DNA of 64,000 bases, taken from Halichondria panicea (lineage: Eukaryota > Porifera > Demospongiae > Suberitida > Halichondriidae). The notes below the pieces were generated by a model that worked only from the letters and a program-made list of their open reading frames with translations, was not told the origin of the DNA and did not search any database. Location of the stretch: positions 1,798,001-1,862,000 of the forward strand of contig NC_087382.1 in NCBI RefSeq assembly GCF_963675165.1. The letters are read 5' to 3'. This document shows positions 9,230 to 44,511 of this stretch, piece after piece (position 1 is the first letter of the stretch; every line of letters starts with the position of its first letter). The translations under genes were made by a program, and so were the position numbers.

Positions 9230-10811
9230 ATGAAGATTTCAATGATTGCCACTGTGGCTCTGCTATCTCTCGTGGCCCTGGCCTCTTCTGCTCCTCTTCG
9301 CTCTTATTATCAGGAGAAAGATGCTCAGCAACAACACGACTATAAATATTACGATCAGCTGAAGGATGCCCTGGAGCAAAGCAATGGTAATTTCACCAAT
9401 ACCATGCACTAGAAAGTGACACCATTATTAGAATAATTATGTTGTTTCGTATTCACTAATTACTTATGAATTTACTACAGTTGAGGAGGCTCGTCAGCAA
9501 CGCGGTAACTACAACTACAAGACACAGATGCAGCAGGACGGTGGCCCAAGCAACTATTACTATAAGACACAGATGCAGCAGGACGGTGGCCCAAGCAACT
9601 ATTATAAGACACAGATGCAGCAGGACGGTGGCCCAAGCAACTATTACTATAAGACACAGATGCAGCAGGACGGTGGCCCAAGCAACTATTATAAGACACA
9701 GATGCAGCAGGACGGTGGCCCAAGCAACTATTACTATAAGACACAGATGCAGCAGGACGGTGGCCCAAGCAACTATTATAAGACACAGATGCAGCAGGAC
9801 GGTGGCCCAAGCAACTATTACTATAAGACACAGATGCAGCAGGACGGTGGCCCAAGCAGCTATTACTATAAGACACAGATGCAGCAGGACGGTCGCCCAA
9901 GCAACTATTATAAGACACAGATGCAGCAGGACGATGGCCCAAGCAACTATTACTATATAAGGCACAGATGCAGCAAGACGGTGGCCCAAGCAACTATTAC
10001 TATAAGGCACAGATGCAGCAGGACGGTGGCCCAAGCAACTATTACTATAAAGCCCAGATGCAGCAGGACGGTGGCCCAAGCAACTATTACTATAAGGCAC
10101 AGATGCAGCAAAATGGCCCATGTAAGTACCTTTCACCCAAATTCATAGTGAGACCATTAATTTAATATTTTTTGTATTGCCATCACATGAGAATATTCAC
10201 TATACAGCGGAGGAGGCTCGTCAGCAACACGGCAACTATTACTATAAGGCACAGATGCAGCAAGATGAGCCATGTAAGTACCTTCTACAACTCGACCATG
10301 CAGAATTCATAAGAATGTGACACTATGCATTAAGTTTTATAGTAATATAGCCCATCACATAAGAATAATTTACTACAGCTGATTGGACACCAGAGACACC
10401 AGCTGAGGTAGATGCTATGCAAGAAGAGCGCCCATGTAAGCACATTTTCCACTAACTAATGAGTGCTACTAATCATGAACGCGACGCTATTCATTTTAGT
10501 CTAATTGCAGTTTAACGCCTTCGTAGTTTCTCAACACCAACCACCTAAATATAGAATCAATTTCAGCTGCAGTATAATAGTAATGTATAATTATGGTTAT
10601 CAACAATAATTTACTGTTACATGAATGACCACTTTCTGCAGCTGACAGTCTACTGCTAGCAGTGTTGCAGTCCCTGTTGGACAAGTGAGTGCATGAGACT
10701 TCTCTGCATGGTTGCGTGATATGCTATTATCGTTGCATGAAGAGATAATTAATTAAATCATAATGCATTGTTTTTATCCAAGCTTTTTATTTGTGCAGAC
10801 AAGAAGAGTGA
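9230..10811 (+). pseudogene. Secreted KTQMQQDGGPSNYYY-repeat protein, copy A1 (frameshifted)
   Basis: Exons are 9230-9386, 9481-10121, 10208-10273, 10379-10435, 10642-10684 and 10799-10811. Exon 1 gives the signal peptide MKISMIATVALLSLVALASS and a mature start rich in Tyr, Gln and Lys. Exon 2 is a 45/42-bp minisatellite of about 14 units; here 15- and 14-residue units alternate (YYYK / YYK), an 87-bp higher-order period. Two extra bases at about 9955-9958 (TACTATATAAGG instead of TACTATAAGG) shift the frame after ten units. The shifted frame stays open to the end of exon 2 but then hits TAG in exon 4. Either the copy is dead, or this is an assembly indel in a repeat. Start chosen at 9230 because it opens the signal peptide; an upstream non-ATG extension is not supported. 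A likely poly(A) signal ATTAAA is at 10857. Confidence 0.8.
9523..10117 (+). repeat. 45-bp coding minisatellite in A1 exon 2
   Basis: The unit is 45 bp (K-T/A-Q-M-Q-Q-D-G-G-P-S-N-Y-Y-Y), with 42-bp variants lacking one Tyr. Two frames on the plus strand and two on the minus strand are open across the array because the unit length is a multiple of three and has few stops. Only the frame continuing the signal peptide exon is taken as real. Confidence 0.9.
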
Positions 10812-11172
10812 ACCAGCTGAACATGAGAAGCGCGGATACCCGAAATAGTAGAACACATTAAAAATAGCAGTGTGAAAATTTCTAGTTATAATTATGATAA
10901 TGAGATCAATAGAAATGAGTGAAATTCAACTTCAGACCAGGCTGCATGTTGTAATCATTATTAATTAATCACAATCATCATGAAGTTGCAGTGACCCAGC
11001 CAGAGGGCATGCATATGCACAGTTCTAATAATAATATAGGCTAATTGTGGTGTACATGCTCATTGAGCATTGAGTCTCATGTGCAAGGACCTATACAGTG
11101 CATGCATGCATGCCACACACATAGGCCTGTGCCAAATGTTCCTATATCAAAACTAAAAAACCTTTGTCATTG

Positions 11173-14100
11173 TTAGCTTGTAGGAATCTCATATCTGCAG
11201 CAATCAGCTCTTAAGTTCCTTATAGTGTCCTCTATCTTCAGCCATGTATTACTCTTTTTGAGTATGAATTGGTAAAAGTGGTAGCAGAGTGATATTACAA
11301 AGATGATAAATGATAAAGCCATCGAAGTAATAGATAGTGCTGACTGACTGCTCTTGGTGTCTTTGACATAGAAGGTGCCAAATGCTAGACGAGTAGATAG
11401 AGAGCTTCAAGAGAATCACACAATTTGTTTTTGTACAAAGGATTGTTCAGCAATTTCCAGCTGATCAGTCCAACTGATAGAATCCCACATGATAGAATAG
11501 AGAGAGAAGTGTCCAACGCCATGGCAGCTACTAGAATATGAGCAGTCAGAGCCAAAAGGAGCAGTCCCACCCAATAGCGATGTTTGGGAGTGAATGGAGC
11601 ATGGTACGCATCCATGAAACCAATGTACTTTGCATTGTAGTCCATTTCATGAGTTTCCATTTTGAACAGTGAGAAAACCATTGTCCAAAGAAGAGCACCA
11701 CAGTGAACAATACACCACCGGTTAGGATTATGGCGGCAAAAACAAATCGAGGGATGTGATCGGAAGTGAAATATTGCACATTGCCGTCATACAGCCAAAG
11801 TATATCACTTGACTTGTTAGGAAAATCCAATTCATTGGTTGAACCATCAGGATAATCCAAGACCCTGTATTGCAATGCAGCAATGATAAACCGTAAGAGT
11901 TTTGAATAAGAGAGTAGGACGAGTGTGCCTAGGGCAGCAACTGGGTTCCTGTTGGAGAGGAGCTTTGAAAATGAGTCAGAGTACTTGCTTAAAATGATAG
12001 CTGCATGGATGAGTTATGGAGCAAAATCATCTTATACAGTAGCACTAAATTAGAAAGGTGATAATTAAGAACATCAGAAGAAACAAATAAGCGGGAAAGA
12101 CAAGTTGAAGAAGCACACTTATTTGAGAGGTCATTCCATCATAAAAGCATGTCTCAATACCCAAGTCAAGATATGAAAACCGTTAAAGCGTTATGAAAAG
12201 GTATGAAAATTGACTCATTTGCTGCTAGGATATTGGTGTTACAGTTAGAAGATCAGCTGATGGATAGTGCCTGTTGCTACGGTAATGTTGAAAAGGAGAA
12301 TGAATGCAACTAGTACTATATGCCTGCCAGGGCAAACGGAAGTAGCAGGAGAAGGTAAGAGTTTGAGCATATCGTGAAGTACCTAACACAAGACTCGATA
12401 CCTGGTTCACATTCTCCACACAAGACACAACTTCGATTGTAGGCACATTGTTCGTCAGGGTTGCTTAGACTGATGTTGACTGGCTTTAGTACACAATAGT
12501 CAAAATAATGTACAGTTACTAATTTATAACCTGTTCCGCTGGTGGTATTAGTTACTCCTATCCATATGTTGTTATTGCTTTTCAATTTTATGGACAGGTC
12601 TCATTTTCCTCAGAACAGTTTGTTATCTGATATTCTTGTTGCAGGACTGGATCACAGTCACACTTGCACTCAATTGAGGACATGATTGGTTGGAGTCCAA
12701 TTCACACTTTTGAAAAGATATGTTTAGAATTTGTCTAAAAATTCCCAAATTGTTGCATGGACCATCAGCATAATTATAGAGTTCCACTCCAAATATGAAT
12801 GAAGCATTTTGTTTGTGTCAGATCTCGTGCAGTAGTTACATCCTCTCCTCTACACACACCACTCTCAGTACTGTCTGCCACAAATATCCCCCCTCCATAT
12901 ATTGAGCCGTGTTATTGTGGATTTCTATAGCTTCACGTCTTGTTTCAGAATATATATCTTGGAACTTTGTTGTAGATACATTCCACCTCCACTGTTGTTT
13001 GCTGAGTTTGACTTGATTTGGACGTGAGCGCGAGAAAAAGCCTTAATGTTTGAAGCGACTGCATAAATACCTCCTCCATTTTGAGCATCATTTCAATCTA
13101 TAATACTCACAAACATTACACTTTCTATGTCACTACATGTACACAGGACATATAAATATACAACCAGTAGTGACCTTCAAATCAAATGCATAAATCCCAC
13201 CACCATTTTATGCTGTGTTATGAGAAATCTCTATGGGATAGTGAACAAAGAGTATGCTCTCTCTCAGAAACACACCTCCTACAGTAGCTATATTGTTAGA
13301 AATGACCACTCCTTCTGCATTGATATAGATTTGACTCTGAACTGCTCTGATGGCTCCACCCTGCACACCACGATTGTTACTGAGAGTTGTGGGTCCATTG
13401 AACTCCACTCGACTGCTTAGAGAATACACAGGGTTTACATTATTGCTAACGTTGTTAACTCCCGTCAATGACAAATTAAAATGCACATAAATGATATTTT
13501 ACTCTCGAAATTGTCAAATATGCTTAAGTTGAGATAGCAACCGCAATCACTCCATGCATCTTGTTTGGTGGCTCTGTTGTTGGTGAGCAGAGAGTCGGAA
13601 ATGATCACAGTGCCATCAGCAACAAAAAACACTCCACCAAAATCAGCACTGTTATTTTTAAACACGGCTTTAGAGACAGATATAGTTCCAGTATATGCCA
13701 AAATCCCTCCTCCAATACTGTTACTTGTGGTACTTCCTCCATTACCAACTACAGCTTCATTGTTCGTTATATATATTACAGCTCAAGATAGATGCTATAT
13801 AAAAATTCCAATCGCTCCACCAAAGGCAGCGTTGTTGTTTGTTAGCTTGCTATCAGATATCAATAACTCTCCATTGAAAACCAAAATCGCTCCACCTGAT
13901 CTTTCAGCACTGTTGTACGCTAGCTTACTGTCGGAGATGGAGACACTCCCATCCTGGCTATTAATTGCTTCACTGTCAGAGTTAGCACTATTGTTCAGTA
14001 GCGCACAGTGTGATATGGACAAATTACTGCTGGGCAAGGGGGCAACAATTGCATCACCAGCTTCAGTGCTATTGTTTGAAAAATTGCACAAAACTAATAG

Positions 14101-16278: not shown

Positions 16279-16285
16279 TATATAA
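16279..16285 (+). promoter_or_regulatory. TATA box of gene A2
   Basis: TATATAA, 80 bases before the start codon, in the same conserved leader as in the other family members. Confidence 0.7.
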
Positions 16286-16364: not shown

Positions 16365-17947
16365 ATGAAGATTTCAATGATTGCCACTGTGGCTCTGCTA
16401 TCTCTCGTGGCTCTGGCCTCTTCTGCTCCTCATCGCTCTTATTATCAGGAGAAAGATGCTCAGCAACAGCACGACTATAAATATTACGATCAGCTGAAGG
16501 ATGCCCTGGAGCAAAGCAATGGTAATTTCACCAATACCATGCACTAGAAAGTGACACCATTATTAGAATAATTATGTTGTTTCGTATTCACTAATTACTT
16601 ATGAATTTACTACAGTTGAGGAGGCTCGTCAGCAACGCGGTAACTACAACTACAAGACACAGATGCAGCAGGACGGTGGCCCAAGCAACTATTACTATAA
16701 GACACAGATGCAGCAGGACGGTGGCCCAAGCAACTATTACTATAAGACACAGATGCAGCAGGACGATCGCCCAAGCAACTATTACTATAAGGCACAGATG
16801 CAGCAGGACGGTGGCCCAAGCAACTATTACTATAAGGCACAGATGCAGCAGGACGGTGGCCCAAGCAACTATTACTATAAGACACAGATGCAGCAGGCTG
16901 ATCGCCCAAGCAACTATTACTATAAGGCACAGATGCAGCAGGACGGTGGTCCAAGCAACTATTACTATAAGACACAGATGCAGCAGGACGGTGGCCCAAG
17001 CAGCTATTACTACAAGGCACAGATGCAGCAGGACGGTGGCCCAAGCAACTATTACTATAAGGCACAGATGCAGCAGGACGGTGGCCCAAGCTATAAGACA
17101 CAGATGCAGCAGAACGATGGCCCAAGTAACTATTACTATAAGACACAGATGCAGCAGAACGATCGCCCAAGCAACTATTACTATAAGGCACAGATGCAGC
17201 AGGACGGTGGCCCAAGCAACTATTACTATAAGGCGCAGATGCAGCAAAATGGCCCATGTAAGTACCTTTCACCAAAACTCATAGTGAAACCATTAATTTG
17301 ATATTTTTTGTATTGGCATCACATGAGAATATTTCACTATACAGCGGAGGAGGCTCGTCAGCAACACGGCAACTATTACTATAAGGCACAGATGCAACAA
17401 GATGAGCCATGTAAGTACTTTCAACAACTCGACCATGCAGAATTCATAAGAATGTGACGCTATGCATTAAGTTTAAATGTTTTATAGTAATATCACATAA
17501 GAATAATTTACTACAGCTGATGATTGGACACCAGAGACACCAGCTGAGGTAGATGCTATGCAAGAAGAGCGCCCATGTAAGTACACTTTCCACCAACTAA
17601 TGAGTACTACTAATCATGAACGCGGCACTATTCATTTTAGTCTAATTGCAGTTTAATGCCTTCGTAGTTTCTCAACACCAACCACCTAAATATAGAACCG
17701 ATTTCAGCTGCAGTATAATAGTAATGTATATGGTTATCAACAATAATTTGCTGTTACATTAATGATCACTTTCTTCAGCTGACAGTCTACTGCTAGCAGC
17801 ACTGCAGTCCCTGTTGGACAAGTGAGTGTATGAGACTTCTCTGCATGGTTGCGTAATATGCTATTATCGTTGCATGAAGAGATAATTAATTAAATCATAA
17901 TGCATTGTTTTATCCAAGCTCTTTATTTGTGCAGACAAGAAGAGTAA
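16365..17947 (+). CDS. Secreted KTQMQQDGGPSNYYY-repeat protein, copy A2 (intact)
   Basis: Six exons: 16365-16521, 16616-17257, 17345-17410, 17517-17576, 17779-17821 and 17935-17947, stop TAA 17945. The spliced frame is open for 326 residues; the first four introns are phase 1 and the last is phase 2, all GT-AG. Residues 1-20 are a signal peptide (MKISMIATVALLSLVALASS), cleaved probably before PHR. Exon 1 then carries YYDQLKDALEQSN, which resembles the repeated exon of gene C. Exon 2 holds 14 units, mostly 15 residues (variants DDRP, QADRP, QNDRP, one short unit). Exon 3 is a single variant unit ending QQDEP. Exon 4 is acidic (DDWTPETPAEVDAMQEERP). Exons 5-6 give the family C-terminus SDSLLLAALQSLLDKQEE. 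I recognise no known domain. A Tyr/Gln/Lys-rich secreted repeat protein could be structural or cross-linked, but that is inference. It is the best candidate for a working A gene. Confidence 0.82.
16658..17253 (+). repeat. 45-bp coding minisatellite in A2 exon 2
   Basis: Fourteen units, mostly 45 bp, with one shortened unit near 17090 (PSYKTQ). Unit-to-unit differences fall at a few fixed positions (T/A, GG/DR/DG, N/S). Confidence 0.9.
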
Positions 17948-18855: not shown

Positions 18856-20077
18856 TAGCCTCGATCCCAGGCCGATCCGTCTCTAATTGAACGCTAGGTC
18901 GCCTCCTCGGCCTGGTATTGATTGTATCTGGGCGTGACCGGAAACTGGTAAGTATCAGCTATGTCTGTAAAATCTTCAGTTCATCACAGTTGGCTAAAAA
19001 TACAGCGATATAATGATATAATGACACTAGAAATTAATACTGTGCACAGCAGTACTGCGTCCATAATAAATGCAGATGTTTAGAAGCGAAGATCTCAAAC
19101 GAGAGCTTCCAGAAAGACTTAATAAATACTGCGTTGGATGGCACTGGGGCATCATCTTTCAATGAGTTCACACCCATCAGCTAGGAGGAGTACGACGGGG
19201 GTTGGAGGGGAAGGTTCCATTTTGCTCCTGTATACAAATTAGTATGAACTTAAATTCACCATTCCACTATACATTTTGTAACTCACAGTGATGGTCCACA
19301 TAAAACTAGCCACGATCCCAGGCCGCACTTCCTTGAAGGCCGGTGAAGGAGGCTAACACAACCAACACCAGTGCCAGTGCCGTAATGTCATATCTTGATC
19401 CAGATACCAAGGATTGGACTATAGGCTATAGTGTACAATTTCCAATGATGAAAGGTATTATTGATTTATATCGCTCACCTTGACAATACATCCCAGGCCC
19501 AGCCACTTGTGGACACCCCTGAGCATAGTATACAAGAGATCGATGGCCAGAGTCTGAGGATAGACTCTACCAAGTGTATCTGGCAATCAATGGTATAATC
19601 AAGCGCTTGTATTAAATTGTGTAGTCAATCAAAGGTAGCCACTGATAGCAGAAACTTGAGAACCTAGGTCTGTTCTTTCACAAGAGTGATGCTCCTTCTT
19701 CCTTCGCACAAGACAGCTCCTCACACTCTAGCTAGCTAAGCCTATATCTATGACAAACTAAACTTGCAAAGAATAGACCTATGACACGGAGTTCTTTGTG
19801 ATTTAACGGTGATTTTACGGAGTAAGTATGCTTACATACACTATTAGTGTTTCTATTCGCTCCACCTTGCTCAGGTATAGTCTCATGAATCAGCCGCCGA
19901 AGAACGGCGGCTGATTCATGAGACTAGCTCAGGTATTCGCTCTTTTTTAGCGAATACCTGAGCAACCACAGCAACCACAGCACACATGCCCAGATACACG
20001 CCCAGATACAATCAATACCAGGCCGAGGAGGCGACCTAGCGTTCAATTAGAGACGGATCGGCCTGGGATCGAGGCTA
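18856..20077. mobile_element. MULE-like non-autonomous element, 1,222 bp, with 9-bp target duplication
   Basis: The ends are inverted repeats of about 85 bp beginning TAGCCTCGATCCCAGGCCG. The direct repeat GGTCGGTAG flanks it at 18847-18855 and 20078-20086. A 9-bp target duplication with long terminal repeats points to the Mutator-like (MULE) group. No transposase is present. An internal copy of the terminal motif lies at about 19308-19353, and a second small MITE is nested at 19878-19926. The same insertion, deleted to 711 bp, is at 45424-46134 in the duplicated block. Confidence 0.82.
19878..19926. mobile_element. 49-bp nested palindromic MITE with 9-bp target duplication
   Basis: The perfect arms TAGTCTCATGAATCAGCCGC... 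surround a loop of a few bases. GCTCAGGTA is duplicated at 19869-19877 and 19927-19935. The second copy of the host element (45424-46134) has the empty site, which proves it inserted after, or was absent from, that copy. Confidence 0.75.
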
Positions 20078-20262
20078 GGTCGGTAGTAATGTTGTGTTGT
20101 GCATACTCATCGCCGTGTATATTATACATGTACTCTCTGACTTCGTTCACTTTCACACCACCATAGCACTATAGCAACATACAACATAAACACTTGCAAT
20201 TAATCAACAACTACCAACGAGAGGTTTGACCATAGATACTATCTAATGGTTTGACTGCCTAG

Positions 20263-20274
20263 TATATTTATAAG
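20263..20274 (+). promoter_or_regulatory. Likely TATA box of SAXO copy 1
   Basis: TATATTTATAAG stands about 75-85 bases before the start codon; the same sequence is found before copy 2 (46341) and, with small changes, before the pseudogene fragment at 59090. Confidence 0.5.
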
Positions 20275-20346
20275 CAACTCTTGTGGTCCCCATAAAACTG
20301 CAAGAAGTTGGAGAATTAAGTTGCTGCAGCTAGCTAGCTAGGACTA

Positions 20347-22124
20347 ATGGCCCCTAAGAAAAGAAATCGTGGCTTTGTGAGTAAGAGAGAGAGCAATGAA
20401 CCCATCCTTCTGGAGGAGCCCTATAATGGAGGAACCGGGAAGACATTAGTGTGCCTCTGTGGAAAATGCATCTGCAAGTAAATAATTATAGTCTAGCCCT
20501 ACCATACCATTGTAAAGGAGCTGCTTGTTCACATACCTGGCTGCATTGTTCGTTTGTCAAGCGTAACCATTATACCACATGCTGCCAACTATTAGCATTC
20601 AATTGCACTGCGTTAATTATTATCGTCCATTAATCGCGATATTGAGCAAACAAATTAATCCCCACCCCCTCTTAATAATTATATAGGAAGCACCACTGTC
20701 CAGTTCACCTCAGTACTACAGGAGCCCTAATAACAGACCAAGGACTGAAGGCGTCTTACTTCCCGAAATCAGACTATCAGGAGACCTTTCGTCATATTTA
20801 CCCCCAGGGATGTCGACCCTCGCTCAAAATACCCCCCACAGTCCGACACATACCCCTCACATCTTGTCAGCACGATCTAGTCACTGTAAATCGTCAGGAG
20901 TACACTCAACACCCATTGCAACCGAAAACAGTCTCCTTTAAACCGCAAGCAACCGTACACACCGCTAATACGCAGGTTCAGAGCAGTACTTCATACAAAG
21001 AGGATTTTCCACCTCGAAAACCTGTGAAGATTAGTCGACACCCGAACAGAGCACTTCAATCAACACTAAGGCGCAGCTGTCATGATGACTCATTTGCAGA
21101 TAGCTACGTGACAATGAATCAGAAAATGCTCAAGGAATGGCCAGATTATCACTGCCCACAATCTTATGGAGAGCCTATAACAGCACCATTTTTTCAAGGG
21201 GAATTTGACGGAAAGACTGTGTTTCAGAATGATTTCAAAAAAGATGTTATATTATTTGGCCGCCCTAGCACCAGCTTTAAGAAATCTGAAACGACACATG
21301 TTAAAAATGCAGCGTTCCACAGTGAGACAACCAACAAATCAGATTACAAGCTGCCACAGATATTTACTAGAGAGCAAGTTCATTTGAGACAAGATGCCAA
21401 GAAAAACAAGGAAACAATGGACACTAGTAACGAAAAAATGGACGCTCTCACACAATACCAACGAGACAACCCGGGATTTCGCCACCTTCCAGTCAAGCAA
21501 TGCTTACTTGCACCTCAACCAGACAATCTCAAGCTTTTTGCAGGCCCACAACAAACTATTACAGAGAACCAAGCTAATTATAAGTACTTCCAGAATGCAC
21601 CCAGACCGAGAACAACTTGCAAGAAAAAACAACAGCACCATGCAAATAGTGGACAGTTTGACGATCGTACCTCATTCAAAACTGATTTTCAACCAATTCC
21701 ACTGGAAGAGATGATGGCACAAGCACAAATTGACAAGCAGGCTGCAGCTATTGGCGCCACATACAAGATGGGAGCTCAAGCAAAGCAGGCGCAAGATTAT
21801 GGCCATAGATTTACTGGAAAAACGACCAATAGCGTCCATTTCCAGCAGTGGAATGTGAGTCCCCGAATTCGCCATGGAGATCGATCCGAGATAACATACC
21901 GTCCGTCCAATCATCCATTCAACGTCAAGTCCGAGACGAGTACAAATTTTGTTCCCATGACAGTGAGGCCCTCTAAGAGTTGCAAGCCTTTGGACGTTCA
22001 TTTTGGACAGCAGAGCTCTCTCTGTCAAGCAATGGCCAGTACAACATCCTATGGAGATCACTTCCTGCCCAAGCCGCTGCCACCCAAGGAACAGTGCCCA
22101 GCAGAACTCCTACTAGGTTTATAG
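20347..22124 (+). CDS. SAXO: SAXO/FAM154-like stabiliser of axonemal microtubules, copy 1
   Basis: Exon 1 is 20347-20477 and exon 2 is 20687-22124, joined by a GT-AG intron; the product is 522 residues. The N-terminus carries the family Cys motif CLCGKCICKKHHCP (residues 36-49), as in SAXO1/SAXO2. After it come repeated short Mn-type modules with an S/T-x-Y/F-x-x-D/x core: TSYKEDF, KSDYKLPQ, QYQRDNPG, TSFKTDF, TNFVPM, TTSYGDHF. These modules bind and stabilise ciliary and centriolar microtubules in known SAXO proteins. Length and composition (basic, no membrane segment) fit. The ATG at 20347 is chosen because it opens the Cys motif; an open frame starting at 20916 is only the downstream part. 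Differs from copy 2 by one residue seen (Ile versus Val). Confidence 0.9.
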
Positions 22125-22252
22125 GTAGCTATAGATAGTGCATTGAACAGTCCATGTAGTTTTAGTTTCATTCATGCGTGCATTTACCCCCTTTACTGTG
22201 CATAAAATTATGCTTTGGATATTTCGGCAATGACAGACTGACTGTATAAAGA

Positions 22253-22298
22253 TAGCCTCGATTCCAGGCCGATTTTAATTGGCCTTGAATCGAGGCTA
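22253..22298. mobile_element. 46-bp palindromic remnant of the TAGCCTCGA element family
   Basis: TAGCCTCGATTCCAGGCCG and its inverted copy with almost no interior. No clear target duplication. Copy at 48331-48376. Confidence 0.6.
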
Positions 22299-22337
22299 CT
22301 CTGTTGGCTGACTCCGGGATCCTACTCCAGGAGTAAT

Positions 22338-22410
22338 ACTTCTCTCGAGGCTACGTGTGTTTACTGTCTCTAATGTCTTTTAACAGTAAACACACATAGC
22401 CTCGAGACCA
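22338..22410. repeat. Inverted repeat TCTCGAGGCTACGTGTGTTTACTG
   Basis: Two arms (about 22342-22367 and 22383-22408) form a hairpin around 'tctaatgtctttta'. The arm sequence, ending CCTCGAGACCAGG, is found singly at 34544, 35980, 49085 and 63942. It is a relative of, but distinct from, the TAGCCTCGATCCC family. (Only the first bases of the arm are given.). Confidence 0.55.
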
Positions 22411-23060
22411 GGACTGAAGCTGTCGACTGAGAAAGTAGTTTACAACAGAATTCACCATGCACGCATTTTATACACAAGCTGTCATCTAATTCACCAGGGC
22501 TCTATTTTAGTGAAGCTATTATATCCTAAAAAGTTACACACATTTTTTTTAATCATAAACGGAAGTGTTAGTTCAGAACGTGTTTGGAGTTACCTCCAAC
22601 TAGATGCGACCCTCTAAATATCCCATGCAGGACTTCAATATAATTAACCTCCAAAAGAAGCGACCTCTGGAATCGTATAAATTATTAAAATGTCACCCTT
22701 AAAAACTGAGGTCTTACGGTAGTAAGGAGATAAAAGATATCAAACTTTCCGCAGCATAATTTCATAAATTTTTGTGCTGATAGTGGAAGGTGCTTACTTG
22801 GGCCACATTGTTGCATCTGCATGCATGAGCATCTATACCAGCTGCTGATAATTATAGCCGTAGTTAGGTCGCTTATGAATTTAATACTAAAGAGCCTCCT
22901 CCTCAACTTGATACTATAGGTGAATCCATGCATGTATAGTCTGTGTTGTTACTATACTTGTGGGGGAAAGCTGTAAAGTGAACACTTCAGCTAATCCGGA
23001 CAGGAAATTAGATCTCAGTTCTGTGAATGCATGTATGGTGGTAGACTCTATATAGTGAAT
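22411..23060. other. Non-coding stretch of dispersed repeats
   Basis: 22411-22520 is the reverse complement of about 34395-34510. 22914-23060 carries the 'gaatccatgca..gttgttactat...aattagatctcagttctgtgaat' unit. No gene was seen. Confidence 0.5.
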
Positions 23061-23480
23061 GAATCCTTGCATGCATGGTGGTAGCATGGTGGGGTCATGG
23101 AGGTGAATCCTTGTATGCATGGTGGTAGCATGGTGGGGTCATGGAGGTGAATCCTTGCATGCATGGTGGTAGCATGGTGGGGTCATCCATGGAGGTGAAT
23201 CCTTGTATGCATGGTGGTAGCATGGTGGGGTCATGGAGGTGAATCCTTGTATGCATGGTGGTAGCATGGTGCATGGGGTCATGGAGGTGAATCCTTGTAT
23301 GCATGGTGGTAGCATGGTGGGGTCATGGAGGTGAATCCTTGTATGCATGGTGGTAGCATGGTGGGGTCATCCATGGAGGTGAATCCTTGTATGCATGGTG
23401 GTAGCATGGTGGGGTCATGGAGGTGAATCCTTGCATGCATGGTGGTAGCATGGCGCATGGGGTCATGGAGGTGAATCCTT
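23061..23480. repeat. 44-bp minisatellite, 9 units
   Basis: Units start GAATCCTTG(T/C)ATGCATGG and are 44 bp, with several 48-bp variants carrying an extra CCAT or GCAT. Unit starts are at 23061, 23105, 23149, 23197, 23241, 23289, 23333, 23381, 23425 and 23473. The homologous array at 49750-50925 has 26 units. Confidence 0.9.
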
Positions 23481-24695
23481 GATAGTGCCTATTTTGTAGA
23501 ATGAAATTGGATATCACTGTTCTGTGAATGAGGTTAATCCATGTAAACATGCAGTCTATGTTATTAGGCTTTAATAGTTAAAGACCTAGCTGTTTACTTT
23601 GAGGAGGTCCATGTTAATTGTTACTATAATTTAATAGCTATATGTACGTGATATTTTAATATTGCGGTGTAATATCATGTTGAATCTCATGAGTATAGTT
23701 GTGATTCCAATTTGGGCAAGCATCATGGGTCTTTCATTTCCATGTCGGCATAATTATACTCTTAGTATAATAGCATATACTTTTAGTATAATAAACAATC
23801 ATCATAACGGCATAGTAACTTATATCGTATTTTTCTTTCCTATATATATACAGCATGCCCGAGTGAGGTTCGCATGATGCACCGCTATAATTATTATGAT
23901 ATTAAATTATCATGCATGTGGAACTTTGACCTTTGGACCCGCAGGGTTGCTACGTTGTACACTCCACCTTAACAACTGGCACTCATGTATATGCATGTAT
24001 ATATAGGTAACGTGTTCTACAAGACTACAACTAATGTGTTTTGGAATATATCCACACTTCTCATAATAAGCTGCATGGGATCATGCTTTTGTGTTGTAAT
24101 GATGTGGTGAATCCATGCATTCTATGTTGCAACTACCCTAAATTGTAACAAAGCGTGGAGGCTCTATAGCTAGGATAGCAATATACAATTTAGTGATTTG
24201 GTGCATGAAACCTCGAAATTTAGCTGCCGCTCAAATCGTATTTCAAAAGCGCAAATACTCCATTCATGCATGCATGCGTATACTCCTGACTTTCATACAC
24301 ACCTCCCATATATAGACATAAACACTTGCAACGGCTTTATCAACTGTAGTTCTATTGTGCATGGCAAAGAGCTAGTACTACCATGCATGCACATTATTAT
24401 TGCATTTCTTGGGCCGATAACACCTGGAATTACATGCTTTTGCTAATGAAATTAGATCCAATTAATGTGATGAATCCGTGCAGTCCATGTGGTTATAACC
24501 TGGAATTATGCTTCTGCTAATGGCTAGGAAACTAACAGTGGGAGCAAACCGTTGTCAAAGGCATAGTCAGTAGTCTGTGAGATAAGGACAGAATTCAATC
24601 ACAGAAAATAGTATCTATAATAAGCAGTCTAAAAAGAATTTAAGCACAGAGTTCAATCACAGAAAGTAGTATCTAGTATAACTATAGAGCACTAA
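23481..24695. other. Intergenic, no gene; shared with 50926-52370
   Basis: The stretch contains copies of the 'gaatccgtgcagtccatgtggttat' unit (24473) and is colinear with the second block. No supported coding sequence. Confidence 0.5.
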
Positions 24696-25346: not shown

Positions 25347-26447
25347 GTGGGTCCAATTTTCTCATTGACAGTCACTGCAATTGTTCATCACTTCAAGTTG
25401 TGAAGGATTTCTCAGGATATCATCATGAAAACTTTAATGATTGCCACTGTGGCTCTGCTATCTCTCATGGCCCTGGCCTCTTCTGCTCCTCATCGCTCTT
25501 ATTATCAGGTGCTCAGAAGTAGTAACAGCATGACTATATATAAATATTACGATCAGCTAAATGATGCCCTGGAGCAAAGCAATGGTAAATATTTTTTACC
25601 AACACCATGCACTAGAAAGTGACACCATTATTTTTGTATTTAGCATAATTTTATGTTGTTTCGTTCGTATTCACTAATTACTTACAAATTTACTACAGTT
25701 GCGGAGGCTCGTCAGCAACGCGGTAATTATTACTATATAAGACACAGATGCAGCAGAACGATGGCCCAAGCAACTACGTACATGTATTACTATTAGGGAC
25801 AAATGCAGCAGAACGATCGCCCAAGCAACTATTACTATAAGACACAGATGCAGCAGGACGGTGGCCCAAGCAACTATTACTATATAAGGCGCAGATGCAG
25901 CAGGATGGTGGCCCAAGCAACTATTACTATAAGGCACAGATGCAGCAGGACGATCGCCCAAGCAACTATTACTATAAGACACAGATGCAGCAAGACGGTG
26001 GCCCAAGCAACTATTACTATAAGGCACAAATGCAGCAGGATGATGGCCCAAGCTATAAGACACAGGTGCAGCAGGACGATCGCCTATTGCAAGCACTATT
26101 ACTATAAGGCACAGATGCAGCAGGACGGTGGCCCAATTAAGCTATAAGACACAGATACAGCAGGACGATCGCCCAAGCACTATTACTATAAGGCACAGAT
26201 GCAGCAGAACGATCGCCCATGCAAGCAACTATTACTATATAAGGCACAGATGCAACAAGATGAGCCAGGTAAGTACTTTCAACAACTCGACCATGCAGAA
26301 TTCATAAGAATGTGACACTATGCATTATGTTAAGTTTAAATTTATTATAGCCCATCACATAAGAATAATTTACTACAGCTGATTGGACACCAGCTGAGGT
26401 GCCCATGTAAGTACACCTTCCACCAACTAATGCATGAGTGCTGCTAA

Positions 26448-29466: not shown

Positions 29467-30059
29467 ACTCACTACTAGTATAGAGCATAGAGCTACTACA
29501 GCTGTAGGGATGCTACTAGATCCTTCACTGTGTCACCTATAAGGCCAGTTAACTTATTCTGTAAGCTGACAAAAGGTCACTTCTAGTCTTCTAGATCTAC
29601 ATGTATATATCCGTATTTTTGCAGTTAATTCCGTATAACCGTATTAGAAGACAGAAATCCGTATAAATACGGAAAAAACCGTATACTTGGAGGCTCTGTA
29701 ATGTACGGTGATCAACAATAATTTGCTGTTACATGAATGATCACTTTCTGCAGCTGACAGTCTACTGCTAGCAGCGCTGCAGTCCCTGATGGACAAGTGA
29801 GTGCATGAGACTTCTCTAGTTGCGTGATATGCTATTTAGGCCAGGCAAAGTAGATTAGTAGTTTATCATCACCGCCCCGCTTCACTTTTAACCTTCTTCC
29901 TCAAAAAGTTCACTATTCATTATTTTTTAGGCGTGGCCTAAATTAATGAGCCAACCCATTATATTCCAGGGCAGAGTCGAGTTACACCCAGCCAAAATTA
30001 ATGGCAATTTCTGGTTTGTGTAATGAATATCATTATAATGTTGCAATGAATAATGACCG

Positions 30060-36334: not shown

Positions 36335-39300
36335 ATGAAGGTTTCAGTGATTGCCACTGTGGCTCTGCTATCTCTCCTGGCTGTGGCCTCTTCTGCTCCT
36401 CATCGTCTGCAAAAAGATAACAACATAGGCAAGTATAATTATATACCCTAGGCACTAATTACACCACTGAATTCATAAGGAACTATAGTAACATTGTTAA
36501 TTTTAGTTGGTTCACATGTTCTGGCCTTATGTGAGAATAAATTGACTATAGTTGGCAACCGAAAGGTCGAGAAACAGGGATACTACAAGAATGCTGAACA
36601 GGCCGACGAGCAGGGATACTACCAGAATGCCGACGAGCAGGGATACTACCAGAATGCCGACGAGCAGGGATACTACCAGAATGCCGATGAGCAGGGATAC
36701 TACAAGAATGCTATGACTGAACAAAACGGTGGCCCCTGTAAGTACCTCCCCTCTACCAATACCACCACTAGAATTCGTGAGAAAGTGACACCATTCATTT
36801 ATACATACTCGATAGTTGTCATAATTATGAAAACAAATTTACTATACAGCCGTTCGTGAGCAAGGCTATTATAAGCAGCTGATGGATGCCCTCAAGCAAC
36901 AAGATGGCGGCCCATGTAAGTCCTTCCACCAACAACACGACTATAATGCACAAGAAAGTGACACCATTCATTTTATAGTTTGTTTACATACTCGATAGTT
37001 GTCATATAATTATGAGAACAAATTTACTATACAGCTGTTCGTGAGCAGGGCTATTATAAGCAGCTGATGGATGCCCTCAAGCAACAAGATGGCGGCCCAT
37101 GTAAGTCCTTCCACCAACAACACGACTATAATGCACAAGAAAGTGACACCATTCATTTTATAGTTTGTTTATATACTCGATAGTTGTCATAATTATGAGA
37201 ACAAATTTACTATACAGCTGTTCGTGAGCAAGGCTATTATAAGCAGCTGATAGATGCCCTGCAGCAAGGATACTATCAAGCTGATGAGCAGGGATACTAC
37301 AAGAATGCTATGACTGAACAAAAAGGTCCCGGTAAGTACCTCCCCTCTACCAATACCACCACTAGAATTCGTGAGAAAGTGACACTATTAATTTATAGTT
37401 TGTTTACATACTCGATAGTTGTCATAATTATGAGAACAAATTTACTATACAGGCGTTCGTGAGCAAGGCTATTATAAGCAGCTGATGGATGTCCTCAAGC
37501 AACAAGATGGCGGCCCATGTAAGTCCTTCTACCAACAATTGCAACACGACTATAATGCACAAGAAAGTGACACCATTCATTTTATAGTTTGTTTACATAC
37601 TCGATAGTTGTCATATAATTATGAGAACAAATTTACTATACAGCTGTTCGTGAGCAAGGCTATTATAAGCAGCTGATGGATGCCCTCAAGCAACAAGATG
37701 GCGGCCCATGTAAGTCCTTCCACCAACAACACGACTATAATGCACAAGAAAGTGACACCATTCATTTTATAGTTTGTTTACATACTCGATAGTTGTCATA
37801 ATTATGAGAACAAATTTACTATACAGCTGTTCGTGAGCAAGGCTATTATAAGCAGCTGATAGATGCCCTGCAGCAAGGATACTATCAAGCTGATGAGCAG
37901 GGATACTACAAGAATGCTATGACTGAACAAAAAGGTCCCGGTAAGTACCTCCCCTCTACCAACATGCACCACCACTAGAATTCGTGAGAAAGTGACACCA
38001 TTCATTTTATAGTTTGTTTACATACTCAATAGTTGTCATAATTATGAGAACAAATTTACTATACAGGCGTTCGTGAGCAAGGCTATTATAAGCAGCTGAT
38101 GGATGCCCTCAAGCAACAAGATGGCGGCCCATGTAAGTCCTTCCACCAACAACACGACTATAATGCACAAGAAAGTGACACTATTCATTTTATAGTTTGT
38201 TTACATACTCGATAGTTGTCATAATTATGATTATGAAAGCAAATTTACTATACAGCTGTTCGTGAGCAAGGCTATTATAAGCAGCTGGATGCCCTCAAGC
38301 AACAAGATGGCGGCCCATGTAAGTCCTTCCACCAACAACACGACTATAATGCACAAGAAAGTGACACCATTCATTTTATAGACATACTCGATAGTTGTCA
38401 TAATTATGAGAACAAATTTACTATACAGCTGTTCGTGAGCAAGGCTATTATAAGCAGCTGATGGATGCCCTCAAGCAACAAGATGGCGGCCCATGTAAGT
38501 CCTTCCACCAACAACACGACTATAATTCACAAGAAAGTGACACCATTCATTTTATAGTTTGTTTACATACTCGATAGTTGTCATATAATTATGAGAACAA
38601 ATTACTATACAGCTGTTCGTGAGCAAGGCTATTATAAGCAGCTAATGGATGCCCTCAAGCAACAAGATGGCGGCCCATGTAAGTTCTTCCACCAACAACA
38701 CGACTATAATGCACAAGAAAGTGACACCATTCATTTTATAGTTTGTTTACATACTCGATAGTTGTCATAATTATGAAAGCAAATTTACTATACAGCTGTT
38801 CGTGAGCAAGGCTATTATAAGCAGCTGATGGACGCCCTGAAGCAACAAGATGGCCCAGGTAAGTCATTCCACTAATATCACGACTATAATGCATGAGAAA
38901 GTGACACCATTGATTTGAGTTGGTTCCCATGCATGTTTGATAGTTGTCATACGTTATTTACTACAGTTCGTGAGCAACACTATTATCAGCAGAAGGATGC
39001 TCAGATGCAACAAGATATCCCAAGTAAGTATATCCCACCAACACCATGCACTGCTAGAATTCATGATAAAGTGACACCATTAATTTTAGTTAGTTCACAT
39101 GTTTCGTATAGCCATCACATGAGAATAATTTACTACAGCTGAGAAGACACCAGGAACAGATGCTCCGATGCAAAAAGATGGCTCAGGTAAGTATATATAC
39201 CTTCCATCAACACCATGCACTATAGAATTAATATAGTTAGCTAAATGTATATATTAGAGAATCAATTTTTGCTGTCACGTGTGAATAATCACTTTTTATA

Positions 39301-39472
39301 TATACTTGCAGTTGATGAGCTACTGCTAGCAGTTGTGCAGTCCATGCTGGATGAGTGAGTGAGATTTCTCTTTGCTGCATGATATACTGGTTACAATTAT
39401 TGTTACATGCATGCATGATTGAATCCACTATAGCTATTTCATCAAAACTTTTATTTGTGCAGGCAAAAGTAA
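36335..39472 (+). CDS. Secreted repeat protein C, 17 exons, array of duplicated phase-1 exons
   Basis: Exons: 36335-36428, 36552-36737, 36850-36915, 37035-37100, 37218-37331, 37453-37518, 37644-37709, 37827-37940, 38067-38132, 38256-38318, 38429-38494, 38613-38678, 38796-38858, 38967-39023, 39139-39186, 39312-39354, 39463-39472. The spliced frame is open for 417 residues. A signal peptide (MKVSVIATVALLSLLAVASS) comes first. Exon 2 holds five tandem 9-residue units (ADEQGYYQN). Nine exons of 63-66 bp each encode one unit such as GYYKQLMDALKQQDGGP, and two 114-bp exons encode a fused longer unit. The family C-terminus VDELLLAVVQSMLDEQK follows. All introns but the last are phase 1, so any exon can be gained or lost without breaking the frame. 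Intron 1 seems to use a GC donor (G|GCAAGT). No known domain; function unknown. Confidence 0.85.
36850..38858 (+). repeat. Tandem exon-plus-intron duplication array in gene C
   Basis: Eleven exons each with about 100-125 bp of nearly identical intron ('gtaagtccttccacc...gaaagtgacaccattcatttta...aaatttactatacag'). A three-exon block (36850-37331) is repeated as 37453-37940, about 600 bp later, so duplication has occurred at both one-exon and three-exon scale. Confidence 0.92.
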
Positions 39473-39719: not shown

Positions 39720-39728
39720 GCAAGAGAC

Positions 39729-41094
39729 ATGAAATACTTTATAGCTTATGAGTTACGAAACTTCAATCGAGGCCAGGCTGCATGCATATATTAATGTAGC
39801 CTGCATGAAGATAGCAGATGATCATGTTAAATCATTTTCTCATATAATTAGAATACTGTGTTTCATAATATACTCCGACTGTGTTTACTGCAGACTCAGA
39901 GACTTAGTTAAGCATGTATGCATGCATGGGGTTCTGTTTATACTGCATGTGGGTTTTGGATCTACACACAATGCAAAATAGAATCTTAACATGCGCTTCT
40001 TTTTAATTATATGCTTCGGTGGCACCGGTGCGCATGCGCAAGCGTAGACTGTTACAGCTGCTTTAAGATCAATGAAGTGCAAGTATAAGAGTAGGCTTCT
40101 AGTTACGTTTTCTTGGATTTTAATTCGTTGATTTGCAAAATAAATGCTTCGGTGGCATCGGTGCGCATGCGCAAACGTAGACTGTTATTAAGATCAATAA
40201 AGTGCAAGTAAGAGTAGGCTTCTAGTCACGTTTTCTTGAATTTTAATTCGTTGATTTGCAAAATAATGCTTCGTTCTCGACCAGCTTCTTTTTTCTGGAA
40301 AGAGTGTACGTGGAGAACTTCACTATTGTAACACGGTTCTCAATAATAATTGTATCACATCTCGTGTACACACACATACGTCACATTACATCACGTAAAG
40401 TAAAGCATGTATATATATCTAAACAACGAATCTAAACTTATATACAGGGTTCTGGTTCAATGAGTTCTGTTTTACACTATCAAGACTTATGTCAGGCAAC
40501 TTGGCTCTGAGTTACAATAACTTTTAACGCGAGGCGCGTAAGCGGCGACATCGTTTGGTTTGTAAACATGTCCCTATTCTCCACTACCAGGTAACTTAAT
40601 GTTACTATTATAGACTGGGTAGCCTTAATAGTTCTAATCCTTGCTCTCTAGATTTTGCCCTCGAGCTATATTAGGTCTGGCCCTGTGGTTTCGTGGTTGA
40701 AGGTCTGACCACGAATATTTCCCCACAAAACCACGAAAATTACCCTCTATATATACGGTATACACGCATAACTTGTATATATGTTGCCATGGTTGCATTG
40801 GTCATGGTTACATGACTTTAGGCCCTGATTATGCTCAGAATAATTTTAGCGTTACATATATAGGTGTAAAAATAATAATTGGCATCATCCATTTTTGGTA
40901 AAGATCATTGCATTAAGTTTTGCATAACGACGTTTTCATGGCAAAAAATGCTGAAAGTGAATATTGTGGATCAGCAACATAACAATTTTTTATGAGAATA
41001 GTAATCGGATTTTTTATAAGGAATAAAATAATGCGTGAAAAAAGCTGCTATATATTAGCCTATAATTATTACCTGGAAACACACACAATAATGG
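39729..41094. other. Intergenic, no gene; contains two tandem NRF1-type repeats
   Basis: At about 40010-40275 a 130-bp unit with TGCGCATGCGCA (40029-40040 and 40162-40173) stands twice in tandem. The rest (40280-41094) shows nothing I can name. Confidence 0.55.
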
Positions 41095-41165
41095 CCCATT
41101 TGTATATAATAAATTATGTGTTTTTGTAGAATGAACTCTTACTGTTCTGTGAATCCATATTAGTA

Positions 41166-41239
41166 TTAACTGTGAGCTGGCCCAATATATAGGTTACTCT
41201 ATAATGTGTCAACCTTTTATTGGGCCAGCTCACAGTTAA
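41166..41239. repeat. TTAA-flanked palindrome (copy 4)
   Basis: As at 7767-7839, with one extra base and small changes in the loop side. Confidence 0.7.
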
Positions 41240-41401
41240 AAACTTTATACTATAATACATCTCACTATTTCGGCTGTGAATGGAGTTAATTCATATTAGG
41301 CTAACGTGCAATGAAATTGGATTTATGCATGTGTGTTTGGATGTTGTTGCTATACACGAACTAAAAGTGGATAAAAGTTTGATATACTTGAATCCGTACT
41401 A

Positions 41402-41710
41402 GGGCTGTCCCAATTATTCAAAAAAATTTGCCTATTATATATCCTTATTAGAATTTCTCAATTTTACTTCCTATTATTCCCAGATAATTACCCATTATTC
41501 TCTATTATTCTCATTGAAAAGCCAACATGAACATGAACCATAAACAATATAAATGACATTGCAGCCATAACAATTGACAGTGTACTGCACTTACATTAGA
41601 ATAATGTAAATAACTGACCTCTATGACCTTTTAAACCTCTGACTCTACCCTAAATTTTTTTAGCCTCACCTATTATTCTCAAAACTATTCTAGAATAATT
41701 GGGACAGCCC
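41402..41710. mobile_element. 309-bp MITE with TA target duplication
   Basis: Terminal repeats GGGCTGTCCCAATTATTC are inverted at the two ends and TA flanks both sides (41400-41401, 41711-41712). TA duplication fits the Tc1/mariner group. Modules A1 and A2 lack it at the matching place (8030, 15180). Confidence 0.75.
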
Positions 41711-42669
41711 TAATCCTATGGGCATTATTCTCTATAAAAAAACGTTTGTGTGCAAGTCACTGATGGGCCATGTCAGAAGGAAGTAAACTGTAGTCAGGAC
41801 AATAGTTGTTAAGGTGGAGAAACAGCATTGTACAACGTAGCAACCCTGCAGGTCCAGGTCATGGCTCCTCATTTGTAACTATACAGCTTGTATGCATAAT
41901 TAATTTATTGTCTATAATTATAGTTGTGCCGCTCAAATTGTGTTGCACATACACAAATATACCATGCATGCGCAGGCAGACTGGAGTATATAGGAGGAGA
42001 GTCAGGTCTTTAATGAACGTTAATTACATTATGATCGTCTAGTTTTTCTTTTTTACCTCCAATCCTTCATCGGGATTAGAGGTAATAGAGATGGTAATTA
42101 TTAAAATGCAATTAAAGTGCACCGAGACAGATTTAAATTAATTGACCCTGACTATAATTATCATACAGCGCCATGATAGTTGACAGCTGAAGGCAAGGGA
42201 TAGGGTTAGAGTTAGGGTTATATAGGCCAATAGGGTTAGGCATCTGTGTTACTATTCACTTTCACACTTCCCATGCATATAATTATAATTATAGCACAAC
42301 AAACAACACATACAATAAACACAGGCTTTATCAACAATACCAGCTGTATAGCTACTATACGTAATAATTATTAGTGGAAAAGAGTGGTATAGTACTACCA
42401 GATACATTCATCTTGTGGGCCGATAACACCTGGGATTATAGTGCTTCTGATAGATCCAATGTGATGAATCCGTGCAGTCCATGTGGTTATGAGCTGGAAT
42501 TATGCTTCTGCTAATAGGAGGAAATTAGATTGCTGCAGTACTGCATGTACAGTCAGTCCATGAATGCATGTGGTTTTTATCTGGAAATATGTTTCTGCTA
42601 AATGAAAATAGAATCCATTCAGTCCATGTGGTACCACATCAGTGCACACATAACACATGAATCCATGAC

Positions 42670-42676
42670 TATATAA
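42670..42676 (+). promoter_or_regulatory. TATA box of gene A3
   Basis: TATATAA 80 bases before the start codon in the conserved leader. Confidence 0.65.
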
Positions 42677-42755
42677 GTGAGTTCAATTTTCTCATTGACA
42701 TTCACTGCAATTGTTCATCATTTCAAGTTGTAAAGGATTTTCTCTGGATATCATC

Positions 42756-44511
42756 ATGAAGATTTCAATGATTGCCACTGTGGCTCTGCTATCTCTTGTG
42801 GCCCTGGCCTCTTCTGCTCCTCATCGCTCTTATTATCAGGAGAAAGATGCTCAGCAACAGCACGACTATAAATATTACGATCAGCTGAAGGATGCCCTGG
42901 AGCAAAGCAATGGTAATTTCACCAACACCATGCACTAGAAAGTAACACCATTATTCCATAATTTGTTGTTTCGTATTCACTAATTACTTATGAATTTATA
43001 ACAGTTGAGGAGGCTCGTCAGCAACGCGGTAACTACAACTACAAGACACAGATGCAGCAGGACGGTGGCCCAAGCAACTATTACTATAAGACACAGATGC
43101 AGCGGCCCAAGCAACTATTACTATAAGGCACAGATGCAGCAGGACGGTGGCCCAAGCAACTATTACTATAAGGCACAGATGCAGCAGGACGGTGGCCCAA
43201 GCAACTATTACTATAAGACACAGATGCAGCAGGACGATCGCCCAAGCAACTATTACTATAAGGCACAGATGCAGCAGGACGGTGGCCCAAGCAACTATTA
43301 CTATAAGGCACAGATGCAGCAGGACGGTGGCCCAATTAAGCAACTATTACTATAAGGCGCAGATGCAGCAGGACGGTGGCCCAAGCAACTATTACTATAA
43401 GGCACAGATGCAGCAGGCTGATCGCCCAAGCAACTATTACTATAAGGCACAGATGCAGCAGGACGGTGGCCCAAGCAACTATTACTATAAGACACAAATG
43501 CAGCAGGACGGTGGCCCAAGCAGCTATTACTACAAGGCACAGATGCAGCAGGACGGTGGCCCAAGCAACTATTACTATAAGGCACAGATGCAGCAGGACG
43601 GTGGCCCAAGCTATAAGACACAGATGCAGCAGAACGATGGCCCAAGTAACTATTACTATAAGACACAGATGCAGCAGAACGATCGCCCAAGCAACTATTA
43701 CTATAAGGCACAGATGCAGCAGGACGGTGGCCCAAGCAACTATTACTATAAAGCCCAGATGCAGCAGGACGGTGGCCCAAGCAACTATTACTATAAGGAG
43801 CAGATGCAGCAAAATGGCCCATGTAAGTACCTTTCACCAAAACTCATAGTGAAACCATTAATTTGATATTTTTTGTATTGCCATCACATGAGAATATTTC
43901 ACTATACAGCGGAGGAGGCCCGTCAGCAACACGCAACTATTACTATAAGGCACAGATGCAACAAGATGAGCCATGTAAGTACTTTCAACAACTCGACCAT
44001 GCAGAATTCATAAGAATGTGACGCTATGCATTAAGTTTAAATGTTTTATAGTAATATCACATAAGAATAATTTACTACAGCTGATGATTGGACACCAGAG
44101 ACACCAGCTGAGGTAGATGCTATGCAAGAAGAGCGCCCATGTAAGTACACTTTCCACCAACTAATGAGTGCTACTAATCATGAACGCGGCACTATTCATT
44201 TTAGTCTAATTGCAGTTTAATGCCTTCGTAGTTTCTCAACACCAATCACCTAAATATAGAACCGATTTCAGCTGCAGTATAATAGTAATGTATATGGTTA
44301 TCAACAATAATTTGCTGTTACATTAATGATCACTTTCTTCAGCTGACAGTCTACTGCTAGCAGCACTGCAGTCCCTGTTGGACAAGTGAGTGTATGAGAC
44401 TTCTCTGCATGGTTGCGTAATATGCTATTATCGTTGCATGAAGAGATAATTAATTAAATCATAATGCATTGTTTTATCCAAGCTCTTTATTTGTGCAGAC
44501 AAGAAGAGTAA
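42756..44511 (+). pseudogene. Secreted KTQMQQDGGPSNYYY-repeat protein, copy A3 (broken)
   Basis: Exons by homology: 42756-42912, 43005-43822, 43910-43974, 44081-44140, 44343-44385, 44499-44511. The signal peptide and exon 1 are intact and match A2. In exon 2 an 8-bp loss near 43103 (CAGCGGCCC) shifts the frame, giving TAA at 43124. A later 4-bp gain near 43335 (CCCAATTAAGC) changes frame again but does not restore it. Exon 3 has lost one base. The minisatellite has about 18 units, more than A1 or A2. As it stands it would encode only a secreted peptide of about 90 residues. Confidence 0.8.
43047..43818 (+). repeat. 45-bp coding minisatellite in A3 exon 2
   Basis: About 18 units; four extra units relative to A2 lie in the first half. 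Later units match A2 one by one, including the short PSYKTQ unit. Confidence 0.85.

Follow-up and report, generated by a model that had tools for sequence, protein, structure and literature searches.

A stretch of 64,000 nucleotides (nt) from the sponge Halichondria panicea (Demospongiae, Suberitida, Halichondriidae; contig C6:1798001-1862000), hereafter called the window, contains six related gene copies, A1, A2, A3, B1, B2 and C, for small repeat proteins predicted to be secreted. The locus raises the question of how genes with the same ends came by such different repetitive middles, and what their products might do. Examination of the window and of the genome (131.5 Mb, 39 contigs) revealed a family assembled from one kind of short exon, apparently undescribed and known by name only in H. 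panicea. The pattern and the relation of the units are well supported, and the claim about function is more tentative.

Only A2 and C have open frames

All six copies were detected. A promoter, signal peptide and C-terminal exon had been proposed to be common to them, and this was confirmed throughout: a leader exon (consensus MKxx(M/V)IA(T/S)V(A/T)LLSL, usually ending in ASSA), a TATA-like box 83-86 nt 5' of the ATG and an assigned tail exon encoding LLLAxxQSxxDK/E-stop were found in 6/6 copies. However, "six genes" overstates the case, since an open reading through all exons exists in only two of the six, A2 (323 residues) and C (415 residues), the other four (A1, A3, B1 and B2) being disrupted by frame-breaking array spacings and stops. 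The broken copies may be pseudogenes or null alleles; assembly errors are less likely. A phase-1 cassette of the form YY(Y)Q(L)K.A..QQ(D/N)GP, or a unit derived from it, occurs in A2 exons 2-3 and C exons 3-14. The six copies lie on the plus strand, and coordinates without a contig name are those of the window.

The A2 copy begins with exon 1 (16365-16521), which encodes the signal peptide followed by YYDQLKDALEQSN. Exon 2 (16616-17257) carries an intact array of a 45-base-pair (bp) unit (16642-17246, 13.6 copies), read as 14 in-frame units NYYYK(T/A)QMQQDGGPS. Exon 3 (17345-17410) holds the single cassette EEARQQHGNYYYKAQMQQDEP, and is followed by exon 4 (17517-17576; DDWTPETPAEVDAMQEERP) and the tail exon (17779-17825; DSLLLAALQSLLDK-stop). 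No stop interrupts the frame between the start codon and the in-frame LLDK stop, and all four introns that precede the tail exon are of phase 1. The stop lies within a donor-like AA|GTGAGT, and if it were spliced out to a possible alternative last exon (17935-17947; QEE-stop), only QEE would be added, giving 326 residues.

Gene C is open through 16 exons. Exon 1 (36335-36428) encodes the signal peptide and is followed by a GC-AG intron; exon 2 (36552-36737) contains a 27-bp in-exon array encoding ADEQGYYQN (36602-36711, 4.1 copies). Exons 3-13 (36850-38858) carry VREQGYYKQLMDALKQQDGGP-type cassettes, one per phase-1 exon (exons 3-8 at 36850-36915, 37035-37100, 37218-37331, 37453-37518, 37644-37709 and 37827-37940; exons 9-13 at 38067-38132, 38256-38318, 38429-38494, 38613-38678 and 38796-38858). 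Exon 14 (38967-39023; VREQHYYQQKDAQMQQDIP), a bridge between the A and C units, exon 15 (39139-39186; TEKTPGTDAPMQKDGS) and the tail exon (39312-39358; VDELLLAVVQSMLDE-stop) complete the chain. Judged from exon length, all 15 introns before the tail exon are of phase 1, and the alternative end would add only QK (417 residues).

These two genes bear on the two modes of expansion given in the preliminary description. Both modes stand, as 45-bp arrays inside one exon in the A and B copies and as 184/185-bp arrays of exon plus intron in C (36802-37267 and 37987-38916), all of them strong tandem repeats, but they are not exclusive, because C exon 2 has its own 27-bp in-exon array and A exon 3 is a single-cassette exon.

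The repeat units share an origin

The proposed relation between the A and C units was borne out by comparison with shuffled sequences. The A unit against the C cassette gave z = 6.5 and A exon 1 against the C cassette z = 7.1, with 0/2000 shuffles as good in each case. Values of 4.4 and 4.3 were obtained for A exon 3 against C exon 14 and against the cassette of lectin-linked copies on C6 (described below), and only 2.7 for A exon 3 against the C17 cassette. At the DNA level, A2 and C can be aligned across an intron (72% identity, E = 5.4e-12), the match running in A2 from the end of exon 3 into the start of exon 4 and in C from the end of exon 14 into the beginning of exon 15. The A arrays therefore most probably expanded within a cassette exon that has a common origin with C exon 14.

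The leader is 88-97% identical between subfamilies, and the first introns are 66-84% identical, compared with 62-70% for shuffled introns (the six rows with the L4 intron, whose limits were wrong, being left out, and the end of the C17 intron being arbitrary). Blocks containing A1, A2 and A3 are 93-96.5% alike over 1.7-2.9 kb, indicating segmental duplication, and the blocks 19924-22370 and 45983-48448 are 98.9% alike; by these identities a large part of the C6 cluster is segmental duplication. As sequence-based conclusions, the leader, the homology of the units, their modularity and the exon history are well supported.

Disruption of A1, A3, B1 and B2

The A1 copy has a promoter and 5' leader at 9144-9229 (TATATAAG, 86 nt before the ATG), an exon 1 (9230-9386) encoding a signal peptide and then YYDQLKDALEQSN, and an exon 2 (9481-10121) with 14 units (array 9507-10110, 13.6 copies). 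A single frame-breaking spacing of 47 nt, late in the array at 9918, shifts the frame and puts exons 3, 4 and the tail exon (10208-10273, 10379-10435 and 10642-10688) out of frame with exon 2, so that normal splicing then meets a stop in exon 4. In A3, exon 1 (42756-42912) encodes a signal peptide, and exon 2 (43005-43822) contains 18 units (array 43031-43811, 17.6 copies) with spacings of 37 nt at 43094 and 49 nt at 43311 and several in-frame stops. Its exons 3, 4 and tail follow at 43910-43974, 44081-44140 and 44343-44389.

B1 (25425-26406) comprises a leader exon, an array exon (array 25785-26254, 10.5 copies) with five frame-breaking spacings, and exon 4; the tail exon assigned to it lies ~3.3 kb downstream (29762-29800). 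B2 (53376-54215) comprises a leader exon with an in-frame stop (open over 53376-53480) and an array exon (array 53725-54200, 10.5 copies) in which four spacings are not divisible by 3; its tail exon is at 54918-54956. Both arrays contain in-frame stops. The family had been assigned the range 9230-44511, which leaves out B2. Its end at 44511 presumes a spliced-out stop codon, and the LLDK stop at 44389 is the simpler end.

Further copies in the genome

Six also proved too small as the size of the family, whose leader exons number 18 or more and are spread over two chromosomes. Genome DNA searches gave 24 and 58 matches (best candidates only), all on C6 and C17. In the retrieved stretches, 18 leader exons were found: the window cluster has 10, C6 1.06-1.14 Mb another 5, C17 has 2 and C6 0.30 Mb has 1, the last being a degenerate leader at C6:300630 without ASSA; further leader matches at C6:1150426 and 1178519 are at the DNA level only. 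Tail exons encoding LLLAxxQSxxxK/E-stop numbered 11, with 9 in the C6 cluster (6 of them in the window) and 2 on C17. Immediately past the window end, the exon chains of two more C-type copies, C2 and C3, are open; the chaining allowed phase 1 only and skipped C2 exons of the 114-nt type, so that the length of C2 is underestimated. Before the window, on the minus strand, an insert of ~3.6 kb (C6:1792.6-1796.2 kb) interrupts the array of an A copy at C6:1796643. The ends of this insert are inverted (CACTGTTAAAAATG / CATTTTTAACAGTG) and a TA is duplicated, features typical of a DNA transposon, so that it is best called transposon-like.

A protein collection was searched among proteins 0.55-1.75 times the query length. 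With C as query one match was obtained (P0001, E = 1.5e-11; 7998 candidates scored), and with A2 none (1036 candidates scored). An alignment of six family sequences (8000 candidates scored) gave 17 proteins at E <= 10; all but one reached E <= 3.9e-5, and the remaining one stood at 0.18. The only named matches, P0001 and P0002, are both from H. panicea, and no named protein from another organism was among the protein-collection matches; 16 nameless matches are short reading frames, in most cases a leader or cassette exon extending into its intron. Since neither A2 nor C found its own protein in these searches, current gene sets may lack the longest members.

P0002 corresponds to NCBI LOC135337269 ("uncharacterized protein") and contains, letter for letter, the four-exon gene D (C6:1876969-1877731), whose splicing had been predicted independently before the match was found; one junction residue differed. 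It has the same leader, cassette-like and tail exons and the same splice phase as the window genes, but lacks an expanded array, contains RR-VLRPLPPW-KK, and has an NCBI start 14 residues upstream. P0001 is annotated as "retinoid-inducible serine carboxypeptidase-like isoform X3". Its residues 1-142 are a copy on C17, with leader, four cassettes and tail, every acceptor at AG and every joint of phase 1. This part is joined to an S10 carboxypeptidase (PF00450, E = 8.6e-92) by splicing out the stop codon. The fusion spans C17:1147.5-1145.6 kb and uses the acceptor TTTGCAG; either read-through or an error in the gene model may account for it.

A stop codon placed inside a donor-like string is common in the family: it was seen in 10/11 tail exons, as AAGTGAGT, GAGTGAGT or AAGTAAGT (AA|GTGAGT, GA|GTGAGT and AA|GTAAGT), gene D being the exception. 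It is this donor in the C17 tail exon that the P0001 model employs.

Lectin-linked copies

At C6 1.06-1.14 Mb, a lectin-like exon of ~90 residues, resembling SUEL/rhamnose-binding lectins (PF02140), lies 363-939 nt 3' of the leader on the same strand behind 5/5 leaders. Its matches to PF02140 (E = 3e-05 and 0.0035) are both under the curated cut-off, three lectin-linked sequences reaching 16.9-24.7 bits against 31.4; compared with the rhamnose-binding lectin PDB 5h4s it gave E = 7.4e-06. A separate cassette exon (ARQQHYYQLKN..) stands between leader and lectin exon at 3/5 loci, and no tail exon was found in the stretches retrieved for the five copies. Near a sixth C6 lectin exon (1053016), no leader was present within the 5.5 kb retrieved. 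The window genes, in contrast, have no lectin part, with no PF02140 detected by Pfam in A2 or C.

Related lectin exons gave three matches on C5 and two on C11. The one C5 locus with upstream DNA read has a different leader and no cassette; an intronless lectin copy on C5 was considered and ruled out, as the DNA shows its own intron and another leader. Because the linker AAHVN and the intron start are common to the few C5 and C6 loci compared, the sequences suggest that leader and cassettes became fused to a lectin gene at a point inside an exon.

Given that the joints are of phase 1 and that the tail stop sits in a 5' splice-site string, leader and cassettes could form a portable secretion-and-assembly module, ending with its own tail or joined to another domain, a possibility that we regard as doubtful. 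Such a module would have been joined to the SUEL-like lectin on C6 by recombination, and to the S10 carboxypeptidase on C17, if the NCBI model is right, by skipping the stop.

Comparison with described families

The preliminary description, which recognised no known family, proposed searches with A2 and C, and these gave no clear match to a described family. Spliced A2 had no match in Pfam. The first 219 residues of C had five sub-threshold matches, and full-length C had eight, two of which passed whole-protein cut-offs: PF21491 (Mimivirus sulfhydryl oxidase R596-like, C-terminal; 31.2 bits against 27) and PF08963 (DUF1878; 25.2 against 23). Both were rejected, as no single stretch passes; the best stretches cover 21 of 107 and 33 of 110 positions, respectively, and the scores are read as weak chance matches summed across near-identical repeats. 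A CitG match to P0002 (E = 4.3e-04, 20.4 bits against 27) was likewise treated as chance. Against PDB sequences, the best E-value for A2 was 0.67, with no match for C or for the family alignment. Three NCBIfam queries (P0002, the C17 protein and A2 exon 2) were negative, phage records gave none for P0002, and no published work on this family was found by title or abstract.

Animal lineages hold many genes without relatives elsewhere, and in few lineage-restricted families has the exon logic been worked out. In this family, one phase-1 exon can be traced into an in-exon array, a whole-exon array, a broken copy, a transposon-like hit and a placement before a lectin exon.

Possible function and selection

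We hypothesize, at a probability of about 0.48, that the family encodes lineage-restricted secreted proteins of an extracellular structure or of mucus or matrix, built from one phase-1 cassette, whose repeats self-associate. The founding unit would be a small exon of phase 1 encoding (A/V)R(E/Q)Q-x-YYYQLKxALxQQDGP. Export from the cell would depend on the leader exon, and cassettes would have been copied either inside an exon, in arrays of 45-bp or 27-bp units, or as entire exons together with their introns. The repeats would associate with one another, perhaps cross-linked via Tyr or Gln/Lys, and the conserved hydrophobic tail LLLAVLQSLLDK would close the chain and help assembly. Expression, secretion in life, self-association, cross-linking and the matrix role are what we infer. 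If the products are indeed surface or mucus material, they would offer a tractable new sponge biomaterial.

The composition is consistent with this hypothesis. The proteins of A2, C, D and the C17 copy are Gln-rich, and those of A2, C and C17 also Tyr-rich (mature A2, Gln 18.9% and Tyr 15.6%; C, Gln 17.5% and Tyr 10.7%). Cys is absent in 4/4, and their pI is 4.9-5.5. Spidroin-like and shell-matrix repeat proteins combine a rapidly changing repetitive core with conserved termini free of repeats, a layout similar to that of the Halichondria family. Unlike spidroin-like proteins, the family has no sequence similarity to solved structures, as far as PDB sequence comparison goes.

Cassette evolution in part also fits the hypothesis. 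For the cassettes of C1 (the C copy of the window) and C2 (42 pairs), the nonsynonymous and synonymous divergences, dN and dS, were 0.0095 and 0.087, a ratio of 0.11; like all the ratios given here it is rough, as pairs are non-independent and gene conversion is likely. Exons of C1 and C2 diverge by 0.052 and adjoining introns by 0.182, and among 17 cassettes of 66 nt, eight DNA versions encode three peptide versions. Between C1 and C2, the cassettes are thus under constraint, as judged from these counts. Exon 1 of four A copies gave a ratio of 0.09, with few changes.

A predicted fold of A2 exon 2, made from the single sequence, is a 14-strand sheet with one strand per unit (mean pLDDT 76.7), which we take as a hint only. 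Hydrophobic moments (p = 0.043 for a strand in the A unit, 0.024 for a helix in A exon 1 and 0.117 for a helix in the C cassette) are suggestive of strand in the A arrays and helix in C, but are insignificant given twenty tests on ten sequences. For P0001, prediction without an alignment was unusable (mean pLDDT 37.8).

Several results weigh against this hypothesis. The C1 and C3 cassettes give a ratio of 0.36, and within C1 the exons (0.029) are not more conserved than the introns (0.020). The A2 units have a ratio of 0.48, level with that of the disrupted A3 (0.49) and above those of A1, B1 and B2 (0.23-0.24), which are likewise disrupted, so that constraint on the A repeats is unsupported by this comparison; the ratios of leader and tail exons are 0.60-0.72. 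The other four models of A2 exon 2 have pLDDT values from 70.6 to 41.7, Foldseek gave 0/246 hits at E <= 0.001 (best ApoB100, E = 0.022), and one report (PMC11795689) describes AlphaFold 2 as giving confident but unrealistic solenoids for perfect repeats. To these may be added the two Pfam cut-offs exceeded by full-length C. The earlier automatic exon chain for C17 had three of four cassettes and the tail correct, but lacked the third cassette (donor GGTAAAGT) and put the leader donor in the wrong place. Domains of enzymes that might cross-link such proteins occur in the genome (matches: peroxidase 11, tyrosinase 12, transglutaminase-core 4), but enzymes of these types are widespread in animals and their presence is weakly informative.

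As a separate observation, six of the tyrosinase-domain matches lie within 1.9 Mb of contig C1 (11.67-13.56 Mb), three with identical scores.

A secreted defence or recognition family, in which leader and cassettes present or multimerise effectors and in which duplication and loss follow from microbial conflict, is a somewhat unlikely alternative to the structural hypothesis. The lectin exon behind all five leaders at C6 1.06-1.14 Mb, the many copies, several of them disrupted, and the identity of the leader relative to that of the first introns would all fit such a role. However, the A2, C, D and C17 products have no lectin part, and they are acidic and cysteine-free, unlike most antimicrobial peptides; the C cassettes, moreover, show no sign of diversifying selection. 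In conotoxin-type families, too, the leader exon is more conserved than the remainder, but the Halichondria family has no cysteine framework and carries repeats rather than a single mature peptide.

Disruption of four of the six window copies, the split copy at C6:1796643 and A units whose constraint is no stronger in A2 than in the disrupted copies could instead be the marks of a mostly decaying repeat locus, in which tandem duplicates have little present function beyond one or two members. We consider this unlikely in view of the open frames of A2, C1, C2, C3 and D, the exon constraint between C1 and C2, and the NCBI models for D and C17.

A leader followed by repeated short units is also the layout of a multi-copy peptide precursor, from which a cassette or internal stretch would be excised as a signalling peptide. 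Gene D carries VLRPLPPW flanked by RR and KK, a candidate precursor motif that is absent from A2, C and C17, and C17 has RK and KK within its cassettes (two dibasic sites in each protein). A2, in contrast, has no dibasic site, C has one ahead of its repeats, and no regular basic motif separates the units. The precursor reading is disfavoured for A2 and C because dibasic sites are absent between their units; it may apply to D and C17, but for the family as a whole it seems quite improbable.

That the genes are an artefact of reading, chance open frames in simple repeats, is highly improbable: the 45-bp arrays are indeed open in two or more frames, but NCBI models agree with the D and C17 splicing, junctions are consistently of phase 1, and the C cassettes have an excess of synonymous changes.

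Other features of the window

Upstream of A1, at 2257-5807 on the plus strand, successive frames of 234, 187 and 706 amino acids resemble a non-LTR-type retroelement, and the 706-residue frame contains a reverse transcriptase domain (PF00078, E = 4.9e-31). Near-identical duplicated open frames of 402 amino acids lie at 20916-22124 and 46994-48202 (plus strand); they may resemble axonemal microtubule-stabiliser (SAXO-type) proteins, but Pfam gave nothing at E <= 0.01. A 44-bp minisatellite is present in both segmental duplicates (23060-23481, 9 copies; 49749-50926, 26 copies) and is nearly three times longer in the second. At 56061-56415, a 177-bp unit occurs as two perfect copies (100% matches).

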